From IMG/VR virus record IMGVR_UViG_3300032240_001607, positions 1-46,113 of that record: a stretch of DNA of 46,113 nt; one strand, 5' to 3'. Source of the stretch: a virus. The notes below the pieces were generated by a model. That model saw only the letters and a list, made by a program, of their open reading frames with translations, was not told the DNA's origin and did not search any database. The first letter of the stretch is position 1. Each line of letters begins with the position of its first letter. Shown here piece by piece: positions 1 to 29,900 of the stretch. A program made the translations under genes and the position numbers.

Positions 1-84
1 CTTGTTACGTTGGAAGCCATTAGCCATAAATAGCTGTTTTCCCCCCTTCGGCCGGCTATGGCTAATGGCTTCCAACGTAACAAG
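1..84. repeat. Long palindrome H1
   Basis: Arms 1-28 and 57-84 are perfectly complementary over 28 bp around a 28-nt loop. The outer 13 bp contain the constant TTGTTACGTTGG; the inner part (AAGCCATTAGCCATA) is specific to this copy. Read on the minus strand, the loop carries a G6 run, then AAAACAGCTATT next to the arm. It lies beyond the terminator of the minus-strand operon that ends at 192. It begins at base 1 of the window, so further flanking structure may be cut off. Confidence 0.9.
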
Positions 85-103
85 TTTGGCGCAGAAAGGG
101 AAA

Positions 104-132
104 ACCCCCAGCAAAACAGGTCTGCTGGGGGT
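104..132 (-). terminator. Rho-independent terminator
   Basis: ACCCCCAGCA pairs with TGCTGGGGGT. Read on the minus strand the stem is followed by TTTT. It sits 60 nt after the stop of the last gene in the 1856-192 operon. Two other stems (134-164, and 170-192 which overlaps the stop codon) lie between the gene and the terminator. Confidence 0.75.
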
Positions 133-191
133 CGGACAGGTCAGAAAGAGAGAAAGAACCTGTCCCTGAGCGTGTAGTAGGGGGCTACACG

Positions 192-368
192 CTAAGATTT
201 GGGCTGGAACATGGCTCTAGTAACCTTATTGAACCGCGCCTCTAGGACTAACCACTCCATAAAGTCCTTAGAGCAATCGTAACACAGGCTTTCGTCACCT
301 GCAAGAGCATTACCAATAGGCTCTTTACAGGCAATACACTTCTTTATGGATACGCGTTCGTGGCTCAT
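192..368 (-). CDS. 58-aa putative zinc-ribbon protein
   Basis: The product has 58 residues and is too short for usual ORF cut-offs. Two cysteine pairs, CIAC near residues 11-14 and CYDC near 29-32, are 14 residues apart, which fits a small treble-clef or zinc-ribbon fold of the DksA/TraR kind; the rest has no recognisable domain. The ATG overlaps the stop of the preceding gene as ATGA, which indicates translational coupling, and it is the last gene before the terminator. DNA or polymerase binding is possible but is inference. Confidence 0.7.
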   Translation of the reverse strand: MSHERVSIKKCIACKEPIGNALAGDESLCYDCSKDFMEWLVLEARFNKVTRAMFQPKS

Positions 369-454
369 TGGTTATCCTCTAGGTGACACTCGCAGTTTAT
401 GCCAAAGGCACTAAACTCTACGCCACAGGTGTCGCATACTTCGTTGTCGCTCAT
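365..454 (-). CDS. 29-aa Cys-rich microprotein
   Basis: This 29-residue ORF contains CDTC and a later CEC-H cluster that could bind a metal ion. Its ATG overlaps the stop of the XRE-type gene upstream (ATGA), and its own TGA overlaps the ATG of the next gene the same way. The double coupling is the main reason to accept so short an ORF. Function unknown. Confidence 0.55.
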   Translation of the reverse strand: MSDNEVCDTCGVEFSAFGINCECHLEDNQ

Positions 455-831
455 GCGTTTTCCTCGCTTTCTAGGGCTTGTAGGGTCTGTTTCTTAGGAT
501 TATAGTAGCCTAGCACAGTTAGTAGGTCATTAGGCGATACACGCAGGGCATAGCAGAGTTTATCTATGTGTCCAATGTTGATAACGCTATTACCTCTAAA
601 CCAGCCTGATACAGTTCCAGCAACTACGCCCTGTGGGTTTTTCTCACAGAACTCGGCAATAGACTTATAGCCTAACTGCTTTACTCTAGCCCTGAACCAC
701 TTGTGGTTGTTTTTCCAACGCTGTTCGTATAAGTTGCGGTAGGCAACCCAATCGCGTTGTGCGTAGAAATACTCAAGCAACTCGGCATTGTTCATACTTG
801 CTGTCTGGTTTATGGTGTCCATAATGGTCAT
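451..831 (-). CDS. XRE/Cro-type helix-turn-helix protein
   Basis: The 126-residue product has a Cro/C1-like DNA-binding region at about residues 55-110. Features seen are SIAEFCEKN (helix 2), GTVSGWFRGN (recognition helix region) and IDKLCYALRVSPNDLL (helices 4-5), the usual XRE layout. The N-terminal 50 residues are helical and charged and match nothing I know. ATG at 831 is preceded by AGGAAA. It follows the Api92-like gene by 75 nt without a terminator or conserved box, so it is probably in the same operon. It is the only clear sequence-specific DNA-binding regulator in the left arm, and so a candidate for binding the repeated GTTAYC sites (inference). Confidence 0.75.
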   Translation of the reverse strand: MTIMDTINQTASMNNAELLEYFYAQRDWVAYRNLYEQRWKNNHKWFRARVKQLGYKSIAEFCEKNPQGVVAGTVSGWFRGNSVINIGHIDKLCYALRVSPNDLLTVLGYYNPKKQTLQALESEENA

Positions 832-906
832 TTGGATTTCCTAATAAGTTTGGCTTGTAATACAGATAGTCGGATTATGATACGGCTCAATAGGGCGATT
901 AGGGTC

Positions 907-1608
907 TTATTCATCATTACCCCAGTCATTACAACAGTCTAGGTTACAGTAACCGCGTATGTCAATACCGAAATCGTGGGTAATCTCGACCTCGGTTTCG
1001 TCAAAGTCGCCGTTTTCCCAGTCAGCAGACATAGCCCAGTTATCGCTCTCGTCAATGCTATCAAGGTGGATAGTCACATCTGGGTATTGCTCGGCTAGTT
1101 TGTGTAGTGCCTCTACAGGTGGCGACCACGCACTTCTAACCTCATACACGATACGCATACAGGTCGGGTCATCTAAACAGGTTTCATAAGCAAGGATACG
1201 GCTACCCTCGTCATCAGTGTCCCATTTAGTTCCCCAGTTGCGACAGTTCCACTCATACCAGCCCTGTCCTGTTGCCATTTCTTGCAGGATTGTGGTCATA
1301 AGGTCTTTGGGGTCAAAAGAGGCTTGTCTATCAGCCTTGTCAATCTCTAACAGTTGTGGGTCAGACCTAACAAGGTTACTAAACGCCTTTTTGTCAATCT
1401 CTAGGTAAGCGTGCAGGTCGGTAGGCTTTACTATGTTCCATAGCAGGAAGTCGCCTGTAACAGACCTGTTAGGCATTGGCTCGCCTGTAATCTCGTTAGG
1501 CTGTCCGTTCCACGGGCTATCGTAAGGCTGGCTCATTTGTGCCTTGATAGCGATAATGTCTTTTGCTTTGCCACGAATAGTGATGTGGCTACTTGCCCAG
1601 TTCGGCAT
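907..1608 (-). CDS. Api92-like (DUF1281/YubB-type) protein
   Basis: The 233-residue product starts with MPNWASSHITIRG and carries WYEWNCRNWGTKWD near residues 117-130. Both are hallmarks of the Api92/DUF1281 family, a ferredoxin-like fold found in phages and conjugative plasmids and usually encoded with anti-restriction and accessory genes. The molecular role is unknown. Its ATG overlaps the stop of the upstream gene by one base (TAATG). The C-terminus is acidic with a CNLDCC cluster. Confidence 0.8.
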   Translation of the reverse strand: MPNWASSHITIRGKAKDIIAIKAQMSQPYDSPWNGQPNEITGEPMPNRSVTGDFLLWNIVKPTDLHAYLEIDKKAFSNLVRSDPQLLEIDKADRQASFDPKDLMTTILQEMATGQGWYEWNCRNWGTKWDTDDEGSRILAYETCLDDPTCMRIVYEVRSAWSPPVEALHKLAEQYPDVTIHLDSIDESDNWAMSADWENGDFDETEVEITHDFGIDIRGYCNLDCCNDWGNDE

Positions 1609-1856
1609 TAGTTCTCTCCCTCTAGTTTCTCTTTCAGCAGGTCAGAAATCTCTGCGCCTGTATTGGTGAAGTCAAGGTGGCTGTTCATAGTGTCTTGACA
1701 CTCCTCAATAATCTCTCGCCAAGCCTGTTCTACCTGAATAGGATTTGGCAAACTCTCAATGGTGTTGCTGGCATACTCTAAATCAAACCACGCCAAAACA
1801 ATGTGGTCATCAGGCTCGTATTGCTTTAGAGCCTTGATTACATCTCTTACTCTCAT
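1608..1856 (-). CDS. Small phage protein of the MRVRDVIKAL type
   Basis: The 82-residue product begins MRVRDVIKALKQYEPDDHIV, which resembles small phage proteins with an N-terminal 'V.D.I..L....PD..V' motif and unknown function. I chose ATG 1856 over ATG 1886 because AGAAAGGGTAAAGAG lies just upstream and the family normally starts at this methionine; the longer form would add ten basic residues. First gene of the operon that continues into the Api92-like gene. Confidence 0.65.
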   Translation of the reverse strand: MRVRDVIKALKQYEPDDHIVLAWFDLEYASNTIESLPNPIQVEQAWREIIEECQDTMNSHLDFTNTGAEISDLLKEKLEGEN

Positions 1857-1931
1857 CTCTTTACCCTTTCTAGTGGTATTACCCATAATACCCTTTTTTC
1901 CCCAAATCGCGAAATCCTATGCACTCTCTAC

Positions 1932-1970
1932 GATAACGATTAGGTCACAGTAAGGTAACGGATTGGTAAC
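1932..1970 (-). promoter_or_regulatory. Two GTTAYC-type sites upstream of the 1856 operon
   Basis: Read on the minus strand, GTTACC-AATCC-GTTACC (1954-1970) and GTGACC-TAATC-GTTATC (1932-1948) are 22 bp apart, centre to centre. They have the GTTAYC-N5-GTTAY form seen before the other minus-strand operons. The CTCTCCCGCCG box of the other cassettes is degenerate here (CTCTCTACG at 1923-1931). Confidence 0.6.
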
Positions 1971-1979
1971 GGAAACAGG

Positions 1980-2064
1980 CTTGTTACGTTGGTAGCCTAT
2001 TTGCCTTTGCCGTCGTTCGCGGCAAAAAAAGCTGTATAGGCAAATAGGCTACCACCGTAACAAG
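1980..2064. repeat. Long palindrome H2
   Basis: Arms 1980-2006 and 2038-2064 pair over 27 bp with one mismatch. Outer constant CTTGTTACG; inner stem TAGCCTATTTGCCT. The loop contains a sub-hairpin (TTTGCCG/CGGCAAA) followed on the plus strand by an A-tract and AAGCTGTAT next to the right arm. Confidence 0.9.
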
Positions 2065-2091
2065 TTTGCTACAGGTTTCGGGCATAAAAAA

Positions 2092-2125
2092 ACCCCCAGA
2101 GCCCTAGGTGGGGGGCTCTGGGGGT
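2092..2125 (-). terminator. Rho-independent terminator
   Basis: ACCCCCAGAGCCC pairs with GGGCTCTGGGGGT; on the minus strand a run of T follows (A-tract at 2085-2092). It lies just beyond the stop at 2165. A second stem, GCTAGGG/CCCTAGC, occupies 2131-2157. Confidence 0.8.
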
Positions 2126-2164
2126 GATTGCTAGGGCTACCAGTGGTAACCCTAGCAAGCCTAT

Positions 2165-2719
2165 TTACTCCTCTATTGTGAGGTCGTCTTGGTCGAAATC
2201 GCTGACCGAAACTTCACTGTGCCAAGTGCTACCTGTGACCGATACATCTACATTTAGCGTGTCATCTAGGTTGTCCCAGTCAAAACCGCGTGGGGCTGTG
2301 ACCTCAACTGTGCCTGACACTGTGATTGTAATAGTCTTGGTAACTTCTTGCTCAATGTCGAACATCTCGCATAGTTCCTCGCGAGTTCCCTCGTGCATTG
2401 TGTCCCAGTTCTCGTCTAGGTATTCCTCTAGTCGAGATACTTTCATACGCAGGGTGTTTAGTTTGGAACGCTCACCGCGCGCCTCGTATTCGTGGTTTGC
2501 AATAATCTTGTGGAGTTTTGCGAGTTCCTGCTGGATAGTCACATCATCACGCCCGACATAGTTGTAGTTCTCGTCGTAGCCGTAGTGCTTGACTTCTAGC
2601 CCTAGTGCTGTGGCTAGTGGTGCAACTTTGGTTTCTGCCAGTTCAGTCAAACCTGCGGTTGCCAACTTCTCGGCAATAGTAGGTTCGGTGACTGCTGGGG
2701 TTTCTGGGGTTGTGTTCAT
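2165..2719 (-). CDS. Acidic hypothetical protein, 184 aa
   Basis: No family recognised. Residues 1-35 are Thr/Pro/Ala-rich and probably disordered. Residues about 60-105 look helical or coiled (HKIIANHEYEARG to LEEYLDENWD), and the C-terminal 60 residues alternate Thr/Val/Ser as in beta strands, ending in an acidic DFDQDDLTIEE tail. ATG at 2719 has AGAAAGAG six bases upstream. Monocistronic: a terminator follows and palindrome H3 with a 32-bp dyad precedes it. Its profile fits a small early accessory protein, but this is not shown. Confidence 0.6.
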   Translation of the reverse strand: MNTTPETPAVTEPTIAEKLATAGLTELAETKVAPLATALGLEVKHYGYDENYNYVGRDDVTIQQELAKLHKIIANHEYEARGERSKLNTLRMKVSRLEEYLDENWDTMHEGTREELCEMFDIEQEVTKTITITVSGTVEVTAPRGFDWDNLDDTLNVDVSVTGSTWHSEVSVSDFDQDDLTIEE

Positions 2720-2745
2720 GGCTCTTTCTTATCTAGTTGGTTTAG

Positions 2746-2764
2746 CAAGGCTCTCTCTGCCTTG
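2746..2764 (-). other. 5' leader stem-loop of the 2719 gene
   Basis: CAAGGC pairs with GCCTTG around a 7-nt loop, in the untranslated leader between the promoter-like region and the start codon. Equivalent stems occur in seven other minus-strand leaders. Confidence 0.55.
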
Positions 2765-2796
2765 TAATACAATCTAACCATAAAAACCCTGATTGG

Positions 2797-2838
2797 CTCT
2801 CCCGTCGTTACCATTTCGTAATATTACAAATTGATAAC
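2797..2838 (-). promoter_or_regulatory. Promoter box and 32-bp operator dyad
   Basis: CTCTCCCGTCG (2797-2807) abuts a perfect-length dyad: GTTACC-ATTTC-GTAAT (2807-2822) followed head to head by ATTAC-AAATT-GATAAC (2823-2838). On the minus strand the order is dyad, then GGGAGAG, then a possible -10 region about 17-25 bp further on (TATGGTTAGATT), then the 5' stem-loop. Confidence 0.6.
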
Positions 2839-2853
2839 GGTGGCTAATCAAAC

Positions 2854-2942
2854 TTGTTACGTTGGATGCCTTATTGCCTAACTGCTTTTTTTAGCCGTCA
2901 CTACGTTTAAACGGCTAGGCAATAAGGCATCCAACGTAACAA
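2854..2942. repeat. Long palindrome H3
   Basis: Arms 2854-2880 and 2916-2942 pair perfectly over 27 bp; inner stem ATGCCTTATTGCCTA. On the minus strand the loop reads sub-hairpin (TAGCCGT/ACGGCTA), A-tract, GCAGTTA, then arm. Orientation is opposite to H2. Confidence 0.92.
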
Positions 2943-2970
2943 AGCCGGTTAGCTTGCCCCAGAAACGCCA

Positions 2971-3000
2971 ATAGCCCCTCAGCGGTCACTGAGGGGCTAT
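2971..3000 (-). terminator. Strong hairpin after the DUF932 gene
   Basis: ATAGCCCCTCAG pairs with CTGAGGGGCTAT over 12 bp with a 6-nt loop, 17 nt past the stop. No clear T-tract follows on the minus strand, so termination efficiency is uncertain. Confidence 0.6.
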
Positions 3001-3016
3001 TGGAGGCTGTTTCAGG

Positions 3017-4024
3017 CTAGAGAGCGAACTCTAGCACCGAACCGAGAATGCGGGCTTTCTCGGCATTTACAACAGGGTCGAAACCAGAAGCGGCACCAAT
3101 CAAAGCCTCGCCACCCTTGCGACCTGTGCGGAAATAGTCAATCCGTTCGGTCAGCGTGTTTAGCGCGCCCCATGCCGTGTTCTTGATGTTGGCGTTGGTG
3201 ATGCTGTCGTTCCACAAGCCTTGCAAGATGTCAATCTTGTCTGTGTAACGAGTTTGCGCTACCTTTGCCGAGGTTGTGTCTGGCGCAGGGTAGATGTCGG
3301 CAACCAACTTTTCGAACTCTAGGTCGGTCATTTCGGTTTCGAACAAGTGTTTTGCCATGTTTTCGAAACTATCCATGTGGTCGAATGTTAGCCCTAGCAC
3401 TCGTCTAGCCTCGTCAATGCGACCGCCGACAGTGGCAGTGTGACGAATCTTGAACGATTGCTTAGAACCCCTGATTGCCATGTTTAGCGTATTCTGGCAG
3501 ACTACGCGAACAGGCGTGATGTTTGCCTGAACCGCGGTTGAACCATCGTGCGAGGTATGAACTAGCAGATAGGTCGTTGTCTTGTCGTTCGCGCCTTCTG
3601 GGTCTAGAACGAACTCTCGCGGAACTACGAGAGAACCGAAAACCACCTTGCCGTTCTTGATAGAACCTGCCGATTCCCATGTTGCACCGCCGTCAAGGAT
3701 TCCGTCACCGAACGCGAATAGTTCCTCGTTCTGCACGACCTTATACCTGTCACCCACAACCGACAAGACATCAACGCCGTTGTCGAATGGATTGTCGCGC
3801 ACGACGAGTTGGTTGTTGCTAGTGTCGCGATAGCCGTCAGGCATGGTAAGCGGTTCTAAACGAACATTCCAATCGTTTAGTTTTGCGCCTTGTAGCATTT
3901 CGGCAGTGCTGACATTTGCATCAGCATCGAACAAGGCGTTAGCCAAGCCGTGCCATGCAGGTTCGCCACGCAATGCGAACGCGACCTGCCCTGTTGTTTC
4001 ATCTATTTCTAGTGCATGCGCCAT
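3017..4024 (-). CDS. DUF932 phage/plasmid-like protein (TIGR03299 type)
   Basis: The 335-residue product opens with MAHALEIDETTGQVAFALRG and EPAWHGL, the characteristic start of the DUF932 / TIGR03299 family. Later motifs match too: YKVVQNEELFAFGDGIL, LLVHTSHDGSTAVQANITPVRVVC and the C-terminal helical part ending in NAEKARILGSVLEFA. Length is normal for the family, which is widespread in phages, plasmids and actinobacteria and has no firmly established biochemical role. Start ATG 4024 has AGAAAGAGG 9 bases upstream. It forms its own cassette between H3 and H4. Confidence 0.88.
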   Translation of the reverse strand: MAHALEIDETTGQVAFALRGEPAWHGLANALFDADANVSTAEMLQGAKLNDWNVRLEPLTMPDGYRDTSNNQLVVRDNPFDNGVDVLSVVGDRYKVVQNEELFAFGDGILDGGATWESAGSIKNGKVVFGSLVVPREFVLDPEGANDKTTTYLLVHTSHDGSTAVQANITPVRVVCQNTLNMAIRGSKQSFKIRHTATVGGRIDEARRVLGLTFDHMDSFENMAKHLFETEMTDLEFEKLVADIYPAPDTTSAKVAQTRYTDKIDILQGLWNDSITNANIKNTAWGALNTLTERIDYFRTGRKGGEALIGAASGFDPVVNAEKARILGSVLEFAL

Positions 4025-4046
4025 GAGCGCACCTCTTTCTGTTTTG

Positions 4047-4064
4047 GTAGCCGTTCTTGGCTAC
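4047..4064 (-). other. 5' leader stem-loop of the DUF932 gene
   Basis: GTAGCC pairs with GGCTAC around GTTCTT (plus-strand reading), upstream of the ribosome-binding site. Confidence 0.55.
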
Positions 4065-4096
4065 ATGTATAAATCTACGCTATTAGGCTAGGCTCA

Positions 4097-4171
4097 CTCT
4101 CCCGCCGTTATCAAATCGTAACATCAGGTTTCTCTCAGCTAACTCTCAGCTAGCTGTTACCGGTTTGTTAC
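4097..4171 (-). promoter_or_regulatory. Promoter box, two GTTAYC sites and CTCTCAG pair
   Basis: The box CTCTCCCGCCG (4097-4107) adjoins site GTTATC-AAATC-GTAAC (4107-4122). CTCTCAG occurs at 4132 and 4143, 11 bp apart. A second site, GTTACC-GGTTT-GTTAC (4156-4171), runs into the left arm of palindrome H4, so the palindrome's own GTTACG is half of an operator-like site. A possible -10 on the minus strand is TAATAG, about 19 bp past the box. Confidence 0.6.
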
Positions 4172-4255
4172 GTTGGCTTCTTATCTGCTTATCCGTTTAC
4201 ATAGTGGTAACGGATAAAAAAAGCAGTTAAGCAGATAAGAAGCCAACGTAACAAA
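4164..4255. repeat. Long palindrome H4
   Basis: Arms 4164-4191 and 4228-4255 pair perfectly over 28 bp; inner stem CTTCTTATCTGCTTA. Plus-strand loop: sub-hairpin TATCCGTT/AACGGATA, A-tract, GCAGTTA, right arm. Confidence 0.92.
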
Positions 4256-4267
4256 ATAGGCACAAAA

Positions 4268-4303
4268 AAGCCCCTAGTCGCTTAGGGGAACGACTAGGGG
4301 CTT
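4268..4303 (-). terminator. Rho-independent terminator
   Basis: AAGCCCCTAGTCG pairs with CGACTAGGGGCTT; on the minus strand the T-tract corresponds to A's at 4264-4269. It is 50 nt past the stop at 4355. Confidence 0.8.
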
Positions 4304-4354
4304 AGGTGTGGCGCGAGGGGAAATGAAAGATAGAAACCCTCGCACCAAGTTTAT

Positions 4355-4579
4355 TTAGTTATTTGGGTCATCACACTCACAGTTCATCTCAAAGTCGCAA
4401 TCTGGGCAGAAAGCGGTGTGAGCCGAACTATCAGTGTGTTTCAGGTTTAGGTGCTGGCACTCACAGAGTTCGCACTTGCTATCACCGCAAGGCGCGTTCT
4501 CTATGTGGCTTGCCCTAGCCTCTGCCATAAGTTTCATGGCAGAGTCTAGCGCGCTGTCTAGGCTAGTGAAATCGGTCAT
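4355..4579 (-). CDS. 74-aa Cys-rich putative zinc protein
   Basis: Cysteines and histidines are grouped as CGDSKCELCECQHLNLKH and FCPDCDFEMNCEC in residues 32-70, enough for one or two zinc sites, but I do not recognise the family. The first 30 residues are helical. It is translationally coupled to the upstream gene by an ATGA overlap (4576-4579). Last gene of its cassette. Confidence 0.65.
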   Translation of the reverse strand: MTDFTSLDSALDSAMKLMAEARASHIENAPCGDSKCELCECQHLNLKHTDSSAHTAFCPDCDFEMNCECDDPNN

Positions 4580-4962
4580 TTGACCGACCTCACTAGAACC
4601 AAGACCTCAATCAAGAGGCTATCTGGTGCTTGTTCCAAGCCCTTAGCAATCTCGGCGCGAAAGAACTCAGCCAGAGTTGGCGAGGTTGGTTCAGGCTTGA
4701 TAGATACCGGCAGTTGGCTAGGGTGATTTGCCTTGTCCTTAGCCTTTATGCGTTCTGCACGAACCATAGCGCGAGCCTTAGCCAAAGCCTTAGCCTTTGT
4801 TTTTCGCCTAGATGAAGCAAGTTGGCACTCGCGACACTGATAGGTGAGTTCGTTGGTTTTCTTGTTTAGCCCCACATAAAGCGAGGTGTCCTTGTCCCTG
4901 ACATCATGTCCTTTGACACAATAGTCTTTTTTGGCAAGGCTGTTGCTAGTTGGATTTTTGAT
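4576..4962 (-). CDS. C-x3-H / C-x2-C zinc protein with apparent ATC start
   Basis: Residues about 15-53 hold CVKGHDV...CREC, the 'C.kGH......CraC' motif common in phage HNH-like and zinc-finger proteins. A Lys/Ala/Arg-rich helix and a helical C-terminus follow. A GTG at 4875 would begin after the first half of the motif and so lose CVKGH. No ATG, GTG or TTG exists in frame between the upstream TAG and that point. ATC at 4962 aligns exactly with the ATG of the DUF932 gene: both follow GAAAGA and then CGCTCAT. Either an ATC start is used or the start has been mutated. Product 128 residues from ATC. Confidence 0.6.
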   Translation of the reverse strand: MKNPTSNSLAKKDYCVKGHDVRDKDTSLYVGLNKKTNELTYQCRECQLASSRRKTKAKALAKARAMVRAERIKAKDKANHPSQLPVSIKPEPTSPTLAEFFRAEIAKGLEQAPDSLLIEVLVLVRSVK

Positions 4963-4989
4963 GAGCGTATCTTTCTTTGATTTTTTGTC

Positions 4990-5005
4990 GTAGCCTTTTG
5001 GCTAC
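4990..5005 (-). other. 5' leader stem-loop of the 4962 gene
   Basis: GTAGCC-TTTT-GGCTAC, a perfect 6-bp stem, 28 nt upstream of the ATC start. Confidence 0.55.
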
Positions 5006-5036
5006 AAATACAACAGTAGTGCTACCCCATGACATT

Positions 5037-5079
5037 TCTCTCCCGCCGTTATCAAAATGTAATATTACGGAATGATAAC
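5037..5079 (-). promoter_or_regulatory. Promoter box and 32-bp operator dyad
   Basis: CTCTCCCGCCG is followed by GTTATC-AAAAT-GTAAT (5048-5063) and the inverted ATTAC-GGAAT-GATAAC (5064-5079). Layout matches 2797-2838 exactly, with palindrome H5 starting 5 bp further on. Confidence 0.6.
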
Positions 5080-5083
5080 GGTC

Positions 5084-5164
5084 TTGTTACGTTGGATTGC
5101 TATTGGCTATTGAAAGGTCCCCCCACAAACAGCTCTTATAGCCAATAGCAATCCAACGTAACAA
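5084..5164. repeat. Long palindrome H5
   Basis: Arms 5084-5110 and 5138-5164 pair perfectly over 27 bp; inner stem ATTGCTATTGGCTAT. The plus-strand loop has a C6 run, then ACAAACAGCTCTT next to the right arm. It resembles H1 in the opposite orientation and lacks the sub-hairpin of H2, H3, H4 and H6. Confidence 0.9.
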
Positions 5165-5177
5165 ACTCAGGGCAAAA

Positions 5178-5210
5178 AAATAGCCCCCAGCGATTTGCTG
5201 GGGGCTATTT
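5178..5210 (-). terminator. Rho-independent terminator, possibly bidirectional
   Basis: AAATAGCCCCCAGC pairs with GCTGGGGGCTATTT around a 5-nt loop, with A-tract on the left and T-tract on the right. It lies 8 nt past the stop at 5218. Confidence 0.85.
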
Positions 5211-5217
5211 TACTTAT

Positions 5218-5274
5218 TTAGGCTATTGCGACTATCCCGAAGATTACAACAGCAACCAACCAAAGCCACTCCAT
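5218..5274 (-). CDS. 18-aa putative membrane micropeptide
   Basis: MEWLWLVAVVIFGIVAIA is almost wholly hydrophobic and could span a membrane once. Its ATG overlaps the TAA of the preceding gene (TAATG), like the other coupled genes in this arm, and its stop is just before the terminator. A leftover ORF is possible, but coupling plus composition makes expression plausible. Confidence 0.4.
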   Translation of the reverse strand: MEWLWLVAVVIFGIVAIA

Positions 5275-5495
5275 TACTCGGCCTCCTCCTCGTCATCTCG
5301 GCAGGTGAAGCAAGACTCATCAGCGTCAAGTTCGCCGTTGCAGTCTTTGCAAACTCGCTCAATCTCATAACTTTCGGTGCTGGAGTAGTGCGAGTTGAGG
5401 TCAGCCAAGAAGTTCTGTTCTGCCTCCTCTGGCGTGTGTCCCTCCACAATCCCCTCATACTCATAAGTGGCGGTTATCTTGTAGTAGCGTAGCAT
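5274..5495 (-). CDS. 73-aa zinc-ribbon protein
   Basis: The N-terminal half (MLRYYKITATYEYEGIVEGH) looks like an alpha/beta fold with alternating strands. The C-terminal half holds CKDC and CFTC 14 residues apart, a zinc ribbon, then an acidic tail. Family not recognised. The ATG overlaps the stop of the upstream gene by one base. Confidence 0.7.
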   Translation of the reverse strand: MLRYYKITATYEYEGIVEGHTPEEAEQNFLADLNSHYSSTESYEIERVCKDCNGELDADESCFTCRDDEEEAE

Positions 5496-5815
5496 TACGC
5501 CACCTCCTCCTCTGCGCTGTCGCGCTCGTCAATGATTGCCTGAATAGCGATTGAGTAGTGGTGCTGATAGTAAAGATAAAGGTCGGTTTTCATCAAGTCC
5601 TCAATCCTGTCTGGTAGTTCAGTGGTTAGTTCGCTGAACTTGTTTGAGTATTCGTCTGGCAGGTCGCGCCAATCCTGAATAATGTCGCTGTAATAGATAG
5701 GCACGGCGCTGTCGGCGTATTCGTGAGCCGAGTCCTCGGGGTGCGTCTGTCTTAGAATGTGGGCTTTGTCGCCCTCAATCTCTTTTGTGATTTGTTCGGG
5801 TGTATAAAGTGCCAT
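5495..5815 (-). CDS. Hypothetical acidic protein, 106 aa
   Basis: No known domain recognised. It is acidic and mostly helical, with an aromatic cluster LYLYYQHHYSIAIQAIID near residues 79-96. I chose ATG 5815 because AAAGAGG lies 9 nt upstream; the TTG at 5824 would touch that ribosome-binding site. First gene of a three-gene coupled operon with the zinc-ribbon protein and the membrane micropeptide. Confidence 0.65.
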   Translation of the reverse strand: MALYTPEQITKEIEGDKAHILRQTHPEDSAHEYADSAVPIYYSDIIQDWRDLPDEYSNKFSELTTELPDRIEDLMKTDLYLYYQHHYSIAIQAIIDERDSAEEEVA

Positions 5816-5840
5816 TTCGGGCAACCTCTTTCATTTAGGT

Positions 5841-5862
5841 TTATTAGCATTTTTGCTAATAA
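5841..5862 (-). other. 5' leader stem-loop of the 5815 operon
   Basis: TTATTAGC pairs with GCTAATAA around ATTTTT. Longest of the eight leader stems (8 bp). Confidence 0.6.
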
Positions 5863-5890
5863 GACTAGATTACTATCTTTTAGGCTCGCG

Positions 5891-5965
5891 CTCTCCCGCC
5901 GTTACCTAAATGTAACATTTGATTTCTCTCAGCCGGCTCTCAGGTTATCGTTACCAAACCGTAAT
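5891..5965 (-). promoter_or_regulatory. Promoter box, GTTAYC sites and CTCTCAG pair
   Basis: CTCTCCCGCC adjoins GTTACC-TAAAT-GTAAC (5901-5916). CTCTCAG is at 5926 and 5937 (11 bp apart). GTTACC-AAACC-GTAAT is at 5950-5965, immediately before palindrome H6. A possible -10 on the minus strand is GATAGT, about 21 bp past the box. Confidence 0.6.
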
Positions 5966-5969
5966 AAAG

Positions 5970-6051
5970 TTGTTACGTTGGTTGCCTTGTTGCCTAACTG
6001 CTGCTTTTGTCCGATACACACGGACAGGCAACAAGGCAACCAACGTAACAA
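5970..6051. repeat. Long palindrome H6
   Basis: Arms 5970-5995 and 6026-6051 pair perfectly over 26 bp; inner stem TTGCCTTGTTGCCT. On the minus strand: sub-hairpin TGTCCG/CGGACA, A-tract, GCAGCAGTTA, then arm. Same orientation as H1 and H3. Confidence 0.92.
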
Positions 6052-6766: not shown

Positions 6767-6799
6767 TTGTGAGCCCTTCTTTCTTTAGATTTTTTGCCC

Positions 6800-6813
6800 T
6801 AGCCTTTTGGCTA
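6800..6813 (-). other. 5' leader stem-loop of the 6766 gene
   Basis: TAGCC-TTTT-GGCTA, a 5-bp stem of the same type as 4990-5005. Confidence 0.5.
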
Positions 6814-6846
6814 TGACATAACTTTACTGCCCTATTACAGCCCCTC

Positions 6847-6871
6847 GCTCCCGCCGTTACCTAAACGTTAT
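6847..6871 (-). promoter_or_regulatory. Promoter box with single GTTAYC site
   Basis: GCTCCCGCC precedes GTTACC-TAAAC-GTTAT (6856-6871). This is the only cassette start without a palindrome or a second site; the region to the gene end at 6917 has no convincing terminator. Confidence 0.55.
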
Positions 6872-6916
6872 AGAGAGGGGCGAGCCCTTTTTACGCCATG
6901 GCTCAGGGCGGTGGTT

Positions 6917-7290: not shown

Positions 7291-7370
7291 CTCTCCCGCC
7301 GTTATCAAACTGTAATCTCAGCTAACTCTCAGGTTATCGTGACCTAATCGTTATGTAACAATATGGTAAC
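7291..7370 (-). promoter_or_regulatory. Promoter box, CTCTCAG pair and 32-bp operator dyad
   Basis: CTCTCCCGCC adjoins GTTATC-AAACT-GTAAT (7301-7316). A TCTCAG and a CTCTCAG (7315 and 7326 registers) are 11 bp apart. The dyad is GTGACC-TAATC-GTTAT (7339-7354) against GTAAC-AATAT-GGTAAC (7355-7370). The three-way-junction element begins 2 bp later. Confidence 0.6.
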
Positions 7371-7372
7371 GG

Positions 7373-7478
7373 GCCGACTCAACAAAAACTATTGGCAAAA
7401 GGCCTAGCGGCCTTTAGCCTAATAGTTTTAGCCATAGTATATGGTGAAGCATATATACTATGGCGTTGTTGAGTTGGC
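7373..7478. repeat. Three-way-junction element J1
   Basis: The outer stem GCCGACTCAACAA (7373-7385) pairs with TTGTTGAGTTGGC (7466-7478), with one G.T pair. Inside are two independent hairpins. The first is AAACTATT..AATAGTTT with an inner AAAGGCC/GGCCTTT. The second is GCCATAGTATAT paired with ATATACTATGGC. CGGGC before and GCCCG after could extend the outer stem across a bulge. No tRNA features (no T-loop or anticodon arm). Confidence 0.88.
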
Positions 7479-7499
7479 GCGACACGCCCGGGTGACATC

Positions 7500-8551: not shown

Positions 8552-8642
8552 CTCTCCCGCCGTTACCAAACTGTAATATCAGGTTTCTCTCAGGCTTCTC
8601 TCAGCTAAACGTTATCAAACTGTTATATAACGATTGCATAAC
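8552..8642 (-). promoter_or_regulatory. Promoter box, CTCTCAG pair and 32-bp operator dyad
   Basis: CTCTCCCGCCG adjoins GTTACC-AAACT-GTAAT (8562-8577). CTCTCAG is at 8587 and 8598. The dyad is GTTATC-AAACT-GTTAT (8611-8626) against ATAAC-GATTG-CATAAC (8627-8642). Read on the minus strand, TAACGG and GATAAT are 17 bp apart, the spacing of a sigma70-type promoter. Confidence 0.62.
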
Positions 8643-8644
8643 GG

Positions 8645-8738
8645 GCCAACTCAACAAAAGCTATTGGCAACGAAGTTGCCTAATAGCTTTAGCCCTATGC
8701 TATGCGAAGCATATAGCATAGGGCGTTGTTGAGTCGGC
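8645..8738. repeat. Three-way-junction element J2
   Basis: The outer stem GCCAACTCAACAA pairs with TTGTTGAGTCGGC except for one A.C opposition, at the position of the G.T pair in J1. Inner hairpins are AAAGCTATT..AATAGCTTT (with GGCAAC/GTTGCC) and GCCCTATGCTA / TAGCATAGGGC. Several inner base pairs differ from J1 on both sides. Confidence 0.88.
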
Positions 8739-8757
8739 GACACGCCCGGGCTGCATT

Positions 8758-26985: not shown

Positions 26986-29900
26986 ATGACCGTAAATAAC
27001 CCTCAGTTGGATGCTACCAATAAACTTCGTATGACTGCGCCACAAGCGCTGATTGATACCGACTTTGAGTATGGTACCCAGGTATCTAAGTGGGAGAACT
27101 TGGCGTTAACCAATAACCGCCCATTTGTATACCCAAAAAGCACGCCTATTTCTTATACAGACATTAAAATTACTAACCGTACTGTTACTGTAACTTTGGG
27201 TTCTACCACAGGTCTTGCTGTAGGTACCCCTATTGTAGTTACTGATACTTTTCAATCTATCGCAAATGGTACATTTGTAATTGAAACTCTTGTTCTTAAC
27301 ACAAACTTTACCTACACAGCCAGAGCTGCCACCTCTCTTACTGCCGGTACTTCTATTAACGATGCTAATAAAACAGTTATTTCACAGGGAAATTACTACA
27401 CTGCAAGCCAAATTAACCCTACAAATATCACTGCAGCAACTAGCGGAACAGCTGCTAATACCATGGTTTCAGATGCCGCCGCTGGCGCTTCAAAAATTAG
27501 CGTTTATTTAAACGTTGCTCACGGCCTTTCAATTGGTAACGAAATTCAAGTAGCCTCAACTACTGGATACACAAATGCTATCGGCGCTTTTTACGTTGCT
27601 CAAATTATTAGCCCTACCGCGTTTGCTTATTACAGCCGAGCTACTGTAGCCTCTGCTAGCGCCCCATCCGACATTAAAATTTTTGCTCGTGCACAGGGCT
27701 CGGTTCTTCACCGCCCATTTGATGGTGGAGTTATATTTTCTTCTAATGGTGGGTCAAACTACGAACAGCAAATTCGTCAGACTCGCCGTTATTTCCGATA
27801 CCAGTCGGGTAAAGGTATTCAAATCTCTTCCGGAACTATTCTTAAACCTAATTTCCAGGTAGATAAGATGTCAGTAGTTGCTTCTACTGGAGTTATCACA
27901 ATTGTTCTTAAAGACGTTCACAACTTACAAACTGTACCGCCTGATGCTCAAATAACTATTTATGGCGCTAATGAATCAGGATTCAATGGCTCATTCTATG
28001 TAACTAACGTAATTAATTACAACACATTTACAGTAACTACCTCTACTACAGCGTTTGCTGCTGATACAACAGCTTCTGGAAACTACTATGTTTCTACTTC
28101 TGGATGGTATGGGGCGGTAAACCGCCTTGGTATTTTTGACCAGCAAAATGGTTTGTTCTTTGAGTATGATGGGCAAACGCTGTATGCAGTTCGCCGTAGC
28201 TCTACCTACCAAGTTGCTGGTCGTGGAAAAGTAGCTAAAGATTCTACTGCCGTCACGGCTAGCACATTATTTACTACTACCGCGTATACTAAGCAGCTAA
28301 CTGGTGGAGATTTTGTTGTAATTAAAGGTCAGTCTTATCGTGTTGAAAGCGTTACAGATGATAGCAACTTTACTATTTCTCCAGCTTATCGTGGTGCCGA
28401 TGCCGATAACGTAATTATTTCTAAAACTATTGATACTAAAGTCCCTCAGTCACAATGGAATTTGGACAAAATGGACGGTAGCGGTAGTAACGGAACTAAC
28501 GGAAGCGCTTTAACTTCTCCATCGGGCTACGTTTTAGACCTAACTAAAATGCAGATGTTCTACATCGACTTCTCATGGTACGGTGCTGGATTCGTTCGTT
28601 GGGGTCTTCGTGGCACCGACGGTGACGTAACCTACGTCCACAAGATGCAAAACAACAACGTAAACGCTGAAGCGTATATGCGTTCTGGTAACTTGCCTGG
28701 TCGTTATGAAAGCTCAACTATTCCCCCAGTTACTGCGGTTACTAAGAGTATTACTGCCACTGATAGCTCAATCACGGTCGCAGATACCAGTAACTTTCCT
28801 TCAACCGGCGTGTTGATGATTAAAAACAAAGACACTGTAGAACACGTTTATTACTCTTCAAAGACCGCTACATCTTTTAACGTGCAACGTGCATTAGGTG
28901 GTGCTAAGGTAACTTCATTTACTACAACAAAAGACAGTAACACTTTGAACTTAGGTTCTGCAACTTTTGCCACTGGTTCAGTATCTACTATTCAAATTGG
29001 CCAAAGAGTAATTGCCGATAGCCCTAACGTTTTTTCAGATACGTGTTTTGTAACCGGCATAAATGGCAGCACAATTACCCTCAGCAATGCTGCGCTATCG
29101 GCTACTTCAGGCATAATTTACTTTGTGCCTATGAGCTCAAGTAGCGGTCAAACATTTACGCCTGCAACTAACCCTGTGACCGTAGAACTTGGTTACCCAA
29201 CTTTGGCTCCTACAATTAGCCACTGGGGTACTTCGGTAATTATGGATGGCCGTTTTGACGATGACAAGTCTTTGCTATTTACTTACGGACAAAAAACCCT
29301 TACTGGTCTTACTCCAGTTGGTACTCCTACCCCTGCTGCAGGAACTATTAATACTAACCTAAACAGCTCTAATGCCACATTATCTACTACATCTGGTGTA
29401 ACTGTGGGTATGTATATTGTATCGGCTAACCTTCCTGCAAACACAATAATTACAAGTATTGGTGCATCTAGCACTGTTACATTAAGTGCTGCTGCTACTG
29501 CCACAGCGTCTGGAACTGCAACGTCATTTACTGTGGCTCAAAGCGCTGCTCTTATGGCTATTCGTGTCGCGCCTTCTGTTGATAATGGTAAGGGCTCCTA
29601 TTTCGGTTCCCGTGAACTTATTAACCGTATGCAGCTGGTTCTTCGTACTCTTGACGTTTCGCTTATTGGTTCAGGTAACATCCTTGTTCAAGCTGTGTTA
29701 AATAACAGCATTTCAACTGATATTGCTTGGACTAACGCTGTTGGAGATGTTGCAGGTTTACCTACGTCAAGCCTTGCACAAATTGCAGACTATGCGGGTA
29801 AAAACGTAGGTCTTCTTAGCACTCAACTTGGTGAAGTAACCGGTGGTTTCTTTGTTTCTACTACAGGTAGCATTGAGCTTGATAAAGTCCGTGACCTTGG

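Follow-up and report, generated by a model that had tools for sequence, protein, structure and literature searches.

The nearest described kin of the elements reported here are the extended start-associated sequences (ESAS) of Cluster K mycobacteriophages, imperfect inverted repeats with 17-bp arms and spacers of mostly 4 to 13 bp that lie beside a 13-bp start-associated sequence (SAS) at the start codon (PMC3203893). In Bacillus phage SPbeta, a 15-bp motif named SPBRE is bound by the repressor MrpR (PMC10516654). Here, we analyzed the IMG/VR virus record IMGVR_UViG_3300032240_001607, a linear fragment of 46,113 nucleotides (46.1 kb; referred to as the window), whose left end carries six long palindromes (H1 to H6) with a constant outer stem and a variable inner stem. 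These palindromes belong to a family of 151 elements found in contigs of uncultured viruses that are related to Streptomyces phages; a few of the elements, recovered by the pattern scan, are probably chance matches. Why Cluster K-like phages keep inverted repeats at early genes is a long-standing question, and it is directly testable in this larger family.

A preliminary description of the window had named ESAS as a loose precedent, and they are indeed the nearest described kind. Both are repeated inverted repeats that lie upstream of some non-structural genes and are kept with the gene family; here they form an array in the early region, with 23 elements upstream of DUF932 genes. Both also have an arm consensus specific to a group (subcluster-specific in ESAS) and a variable spacer, and ESAS function is likewise unexplained (PMC3203893). 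The comparison fails at the SAS: GGGATAGGAGCCC was not found beside a start codon in the window, and its single match, with two mismatches, lies at 29592 in the structural region (0.5 expected). Length, place and architecture differ as well, since the arms here are 20 to 31 bp long and near-perfect, constant on the outside and variable on the inside, and placed after a terminator. The 13-bp asymmetric stoperator of Cluster A phages, GGTGGMTGTCAAG, gave one match with two mismatches versus 1.5 expected. SPBRE resembles the present elements in being a repeated intergenic element, spread genome-wide and found in the regulatory regions of several units (PMC10516654). It is not a long palindrome, and no SPBRE-type motif or repressor was identified here.

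Palindromes at the junctions of an early gene array

All six palindromes were re-found, with arms of 26 to 28 bp and overall lengths of 81 to 92 bp, and all are of the type that we term class I. H1 (1..84) has perfect 28-bp arms and has lost its left context at the contig end, and H2 (1980..2064) has 27-bp arms with one mismatch (T-C, pair 9). The arms are perfect in H3 (2854..2942, 27 bp), H4 (4164..4255, 28 bp), H5 (5084..5164, 27 bp) and H6 (5970..6051, 26 bp). Pairs 1 to 12 are invariant in the six copies save for the H2 mismatch. H1 to H6 contain 11 exact copies of TTGTTACGTTGG and a twelfth with one mismatch, versus 0.35 matches (at most one mismatch) expected by shuffling in the whole window. 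The inner stem, as had been noted, varies in step in the two arms: pairs 13 to 26 are Watson-Crick in 6/6 copies, with two or three different bases seen across the set at 13 of the 14 positions. The H2 interior contains a AACAGCTTTTTTT-type bulge on the transcribed (−) strand, and that of H3 is inverted relative to H4. As DNA hairpins, the elements have folding energies of −29 to −35 kcal/mol. The count of six was incomplete, for two related elements, V7 (7370..7481) and V8 (8636..8740), had been missed. Their outer stem, GACTCAACAA/TTGTTGAGT, has an order opposite to that of H1 to H6 (class II order, with one mismatch in V7) and encloses two inner hairpins, so that both would fold as three-way junctions.

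In the direction of transcription, the leftward units repeat one order: gene, predicted intrinsic terminator, palindrome, operator-like repeats spaced by 11 bp, predicted promoter and next gene. The earlier placement of the palindromes at cassette junctions held for H2 to H6, each of which lies between two leftward genes, while the H1 junction is cut by the contig end. Terminator-like hairpins precede H1 (103..133, − strand), H2 (2092..2125, −, with a T tract), H4 (4268..4303, −, with a T tract) and H5 (5177..5211, bidirectional). Across the family, strict terminator stems precede 112/147 elements versus 41/771 control positions; the strict test was used in place of an initial lax one that was positive in 57% of controls. 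On the other side of the element come the operator-like repeats (GTTAYCnAAnnGTWAY; 18 matches in the window versus 0.5 expected), such as that of GTTAYCNAANNGTWAY type at 4107..4122 (+), and then the promoter-like box GTAACGGCGGGAGAG (8 matches versus 0.7 expected). Such a box had been described downstream of each element. It faces H3 to H6 but was not found for H2, and for H1 the position lies beyond the contig end. The box downstream of H6 is at 5891..5905 (−), and the remaining ones are at 2797, 4097, 5038, 6846, 7291, 8552 and 9552. A periodicity of 11 bp is the top lag downstream of the elements in all three families, and the median distance from an element to the next open reading frame is 118 nt.

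Relatives were gathered with the DUF932 protein (PF06067) encoded at 3017..4024 (−) as the query and by DNA pattern searches, and the direction of transcription in fragment loci was taken from open reading frames or flanking motifs. The family comprises 113 class I elements (TTGTTnnGTTGG or GTTTGnGTTGG first) and 38 class II elements (CCAACnnAACAA first), and the arms reach at least 16 pairs in 119 of these elements. In other contigs, the orthologs of H4 are the elements that precede DUF932 genes (the group of 23). In most arrays that hold both classes, class II elements come before class I elements in the direction of transcription, and the switch lies near the DUF932 gene. An interior may be a simple stem, a three-way junction, or a stem bearing both an A-rich/AGCTG bulge and an apical stem. 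The same elements recur in many independent contigs, which rules out chance or an assembly artifact, and a pattern scan of bacterial genomes gave scattered or low-complexity matches that were judged to be chance.

The outer sequence is identical or nearly so within one genome and differs between genomes: it is TTGTTACGTTGG in the window, TTGTTGAGTTGG in L014 to L016, GTTTGGGTTGG in L019/L022 and GTTTGTGTTGG in many others. In L013/L018, TTGTTAGGTTGG is mixed with TTGTTGGGTTGG, and both contigs contain hairpins with a different outer version in each arm, as if caught in transition.

Some members and their neighborhoods showed features of their own. Unlike the loops of class I, those of class II (e.g., L015:1630 and L122:1889) share CCCCTAATAAA in one orientation that is fixed with respect to transcription. 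A class II element at L016:389-528 has perfect 64-bp arms that take in the operator-like repeats GTTATCAAATCGTTATAA. The GTTTG family (L027:5140-5215 and similar) has tandem repeats of TTATCCACA, which is the consensus of the DnaA box, next to the palindrome and ahead of early genes. In several relatives (L147:3167-6681), the last array element adjoins a VWA-domain protein and a MoxR-like AAA ATPase; by clustering, these were not found in G010. An association of a metallophosphoesterase with perfect hairpins, as in G001 to G004 versus G010, failed over 22 contigs (G011 and G013 without it, G017 with it).

In G003, a near-complete contig, the entire array occupies 37.3 to 46.2 kb, flanked by a leftward block of long open reading frames and by divergent late genes, and no such palindrome pairs occur elsewhere in that contig. 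When flanks of orthologous junctions were compared, their spacing fitted an element in 376 of 414 comparisons (redundant loci counted); the exceptions arose from spacer length changes, and no precise empty site was seen among the 414. These data bear on the possibility that the palindromes are selfish or mobile elements with terminal inverted repeats, spreading by transposition or ectopic conversion at no benefit to the phage. Inverted termini of 11 to 12 bp, mosaic interiors, and termini that are near-uniform per genome and mixed in some genomes would fit such an element. It is nevertheless an unlikely account given the lack of empty sites at orthologous junctions and of any evident target duplication, together with occurrence at nearly all comparable junctions and confinement to the early array. 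Serine and tyrosine recombinase genes were found in 0/12 contigs, as was the Y1 (HUH) transposase gene (PF01797). Because the contigs are fragments, such gene absences, here and below, are weak evidence. REP/BIME elements and their RAYT transposases offer a likeness in that they, too, are intergenic palindromes close to gene ends and terminators; they differ in that here one element stands at each junction, without clusters.

Origin of the covarying arms

The preliminary description took the joint change of both arms as strong evidence that selection keeps the fold. Comparison of orthologous elements does not bear this out. Between orthologs with flanks of 82 to 98% identity, the arm differences consist of matched indels and of matched substitutions in clusters, as in the pairs L098:5288/L122:1889, L098:4413/L122:1014, L098:6627/L122:3271, L175:9412/L178:7590 and L194:2042/L213:682. 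In the first of these, the flanks are 90 to 96% identical and the loop is nearly unchanged, and the arms have changed. The spacer, moreover, is inverted between close relatives (L014:4572 versus L015:4559). Template switching between the arms of an inverted repeat yields both arm homogenization and spacer inversion (PMC8604942), and it creates and maintains hairpins without stepwise compensation (PMC8794818). Indels in both arms, clustered co-changes and an inverted interior are thus the signature of template switching, and the hallmarks of the process, including spacer inversion in close relatives, are present in this family. Covariation is no proof of selection on the fold because template switching equalizes the arms without such selection. 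The likeness to the template-switched repeats described before lies in arm homogenization, multi-base co-changes and spacer inversion. Those repeats are scattered hot spots, however, whereas the present ones form a defined family with fixed termini that is kept at each junction (PMC8604942, PMC8794818).

Read from these comparisons, the covariation of the arms shows that the hairpins form in DNA during copying. Relatives that keep the sequence and lose the pairing had been named as the finding that would speak against selection on the fold, and in part such relatives exist. The outer 11 bp alone are paired in L027/L028, L186, L197, L202/L203, L208, L211 and L216, so that several lineages hold the outer stem in place without inner pairing. 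The target of selection that can be named with most confidence is that every junction carries an element bearing the outer motif. With ends that stay fixed and cores that vary freely, the roughly 150 palindromes amount to a natural experiment: covarying arms, commonly read as proof of a functional RNA structure, can come from copying at the DNA level.

The interior of L122:1014 is similar to one in a different element of its own genome, which indicates that the elements also exchange parts among themselves. Such exchange, one element per cassette, and the extra cassette with its own element in L016 versus L015 could point to sites like integron attC, at which folded hairpins let the phages shuffle early-gene cassettes. 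Integron attC sites also lie between cassettes and have conserved outer boxes around a variable self-complementary interior. Yet the cassettes here each come with a promoter and a terminator of their own, and the attC boxes RYYYAAC ... GTTRRRY were not matched: class I has the reversed order, GTTGG...CCAAC, and class II fits in part. With the array order largely syntenic and an IntI-type tyrosine recombinase (PF00589) in 0/12 contigs (controls positive; a host enzyme is possible), we regard cassette exchange as the least probable of the explanations weighed here.

DNA-level or RNA-level elements

A role at the DNA level had been preferred at the outset, and this preference was upheld by the rarity of wobble pairs in the arms, by interiors in both orientations, and by the place after a terminator and before operators and promoter. 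Element arms contain 16 G-T and 9 A-C in 3043 pairs, versus 54 G-T and 2 A-C in 1601 pairs of the neighboring intrinsic terminators scored in the same scan. The difference in G-T fraction (P=3e-13) and in G-T:A-C ratio (P=3e-4) is only indicative as to its P values because elements from related contigs are not independent. The wobble excess of the terminators is the signature of an RNA hairpin read off one strand, and the adjacent terminators, which retain it, provide an internal control. Template switching by itself might reduce both counts but would leave their ratio as it is, and the ratio differs as well. In addition, class I interiors that are homologous can face either way with respect to transcription, as do those of H3/H4 in the window and those at the same array position in L014:4572 versus L015:4559. 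Rare wobble and unfixed loop orientation favor a DNA-level element over an RNA, and judging from sequence patterns we consider it quite probable that the elements act as DNA. The element would then be a boundary marker of a puzzling kind, not a conventional structured RNA.

The same observations weigh against a small structured RNA, in which the palindrome would be transcribed, perhaps antisense and ending at the upstream terminator, with the hairpin serving as a small RNA or processing site. Stable folding (as single-stranded RNA, two tested elements of the H1 to H6 type fold far better than shuffles, z ~ −12), the three-way forms and the recurrent A-rich/AGCTG bulge are what such an RNA might display, and in many TTGTT elements a −10-like CGTAATAAAC stands directly before the hairpin on the antisense strand. 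However, CGTAATAAAC is missing from the class II and GTTTG families, so that an antisense promoter abutting every hairpin was rejected. No Rfam family was matched at the gathering threshold, with generic or miRNA-like hairpins as the sub-threshold matches, and an RNase III gene was present in 0/12 contigs. An RNA of this kind therefore appears rather unlikely. A Y RNA of a Ro protein, considered on account of a Ro-like gene in related isolates, was also rejected, as TROVE was found in 0/12 element-bearing records. The TROVE gene is present in Streptomyces phages LuckySocke (L220:10965-12551) and BRock (L221:21752-23323), both of which also have an RNA ligase and large tRNA arrays. These two phages lack GTTTG-type elements over their whole genomes and both motif types within the parts read.

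A possible insulating function and the genome context

Presence at nearly all comparable junctions, a fixed place between terminator and operators, and the conserved outer motif suggest a role linked to each unit. As the simplest such role, we tentatively propose that the elements are DNA boundary elements that insulate head-to-tail early transcription units. The palindrome would fold into DNA hairpins, either by cruciform extrusion or while single-stranded during replication; template switching, with one arm copied off the other, would keep the arms identical, and copies would swap sequence. The outer 11 to 12 bp are the conserved part and are probably read by a protein. Once extruded or bound by protein, the element could block residual read-through past the terminator and absorb negative supercoils left by the downstream polymerase, leaving neighboring early promoters undisturbed. 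If insulation is true, the elements would be compact new parts for head-to-tail gene stacking. A more far-reaching version is doubtful: that actinophage-related myoviruses use DNA-hairpin punctuation, with one extrudable palindrome per early unit, a genome-specific terminal code, insulation or timing through a putative phage or host reader protein, and inner stems rebuilt by template switching.

Several observations weigh against insulation by extruded DNA. At the window junction 6767-6916, no such palindrome accompanies the terminator-like stem and the promoter-like box. Class II and three-way interiors are found in a single orientation with respect to transcription, which would allow a strand-specific role, and in a relaxed scan the inner arms gave 13 G-T versus 4 A-C, mainly from a few related elements. 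A full-length cruciform is not essential in the lineages without inner pairing.

Lineages whose elements, at the same position, retain only the terminal inverted repeats and have no pairing inside would also agree with inverted pairs of protein-binding sites (operators) acting in linear duplex DNA, the interior palindromy being a by-product of template switching. ESAS and SPBRE repeats provide an analogy (PMC3203893, PMC10516654). Arms of 16 pairs or more in 119 elements exceed what a by-product readily explains, and separate operator-like repeats already adjoin the elements; thus, we consider duplex operators to be quite unlikely. For those adjoining repeats, a helix-turn-helix (Cro/C1-type) regulator encoded within the array at 451..831 (−) is a candidate reader.

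The left 9.9 kb of the window consists mostly of small leftward genes, including those for the DUF932 protein, the helix-turn-helix regulator and a weak ocr-like match. The last is a 109-aa protein at 5495-5824, within the early array, with weak similarity to ocr-like anti-restriction proteins (phrog_2568, E 3e-5). The window also has genes for the terminase, the portal, the major head protein and the tail sheath, which mark it as that of a myovirus, and it is probably a fragment of a genome of ~90 kb. By major capsid protein, its nearest isolates are Streptomyces phages BRock, LuckySocke, Alone3, GiJojo and pSt2308 (69 to 70% identity). Many contigs end in or beside a palindrome, among them the window at base 1, L014, L119, L127, G001, G005 and G009, which suggests that the palindromes break sequencing or assembly.

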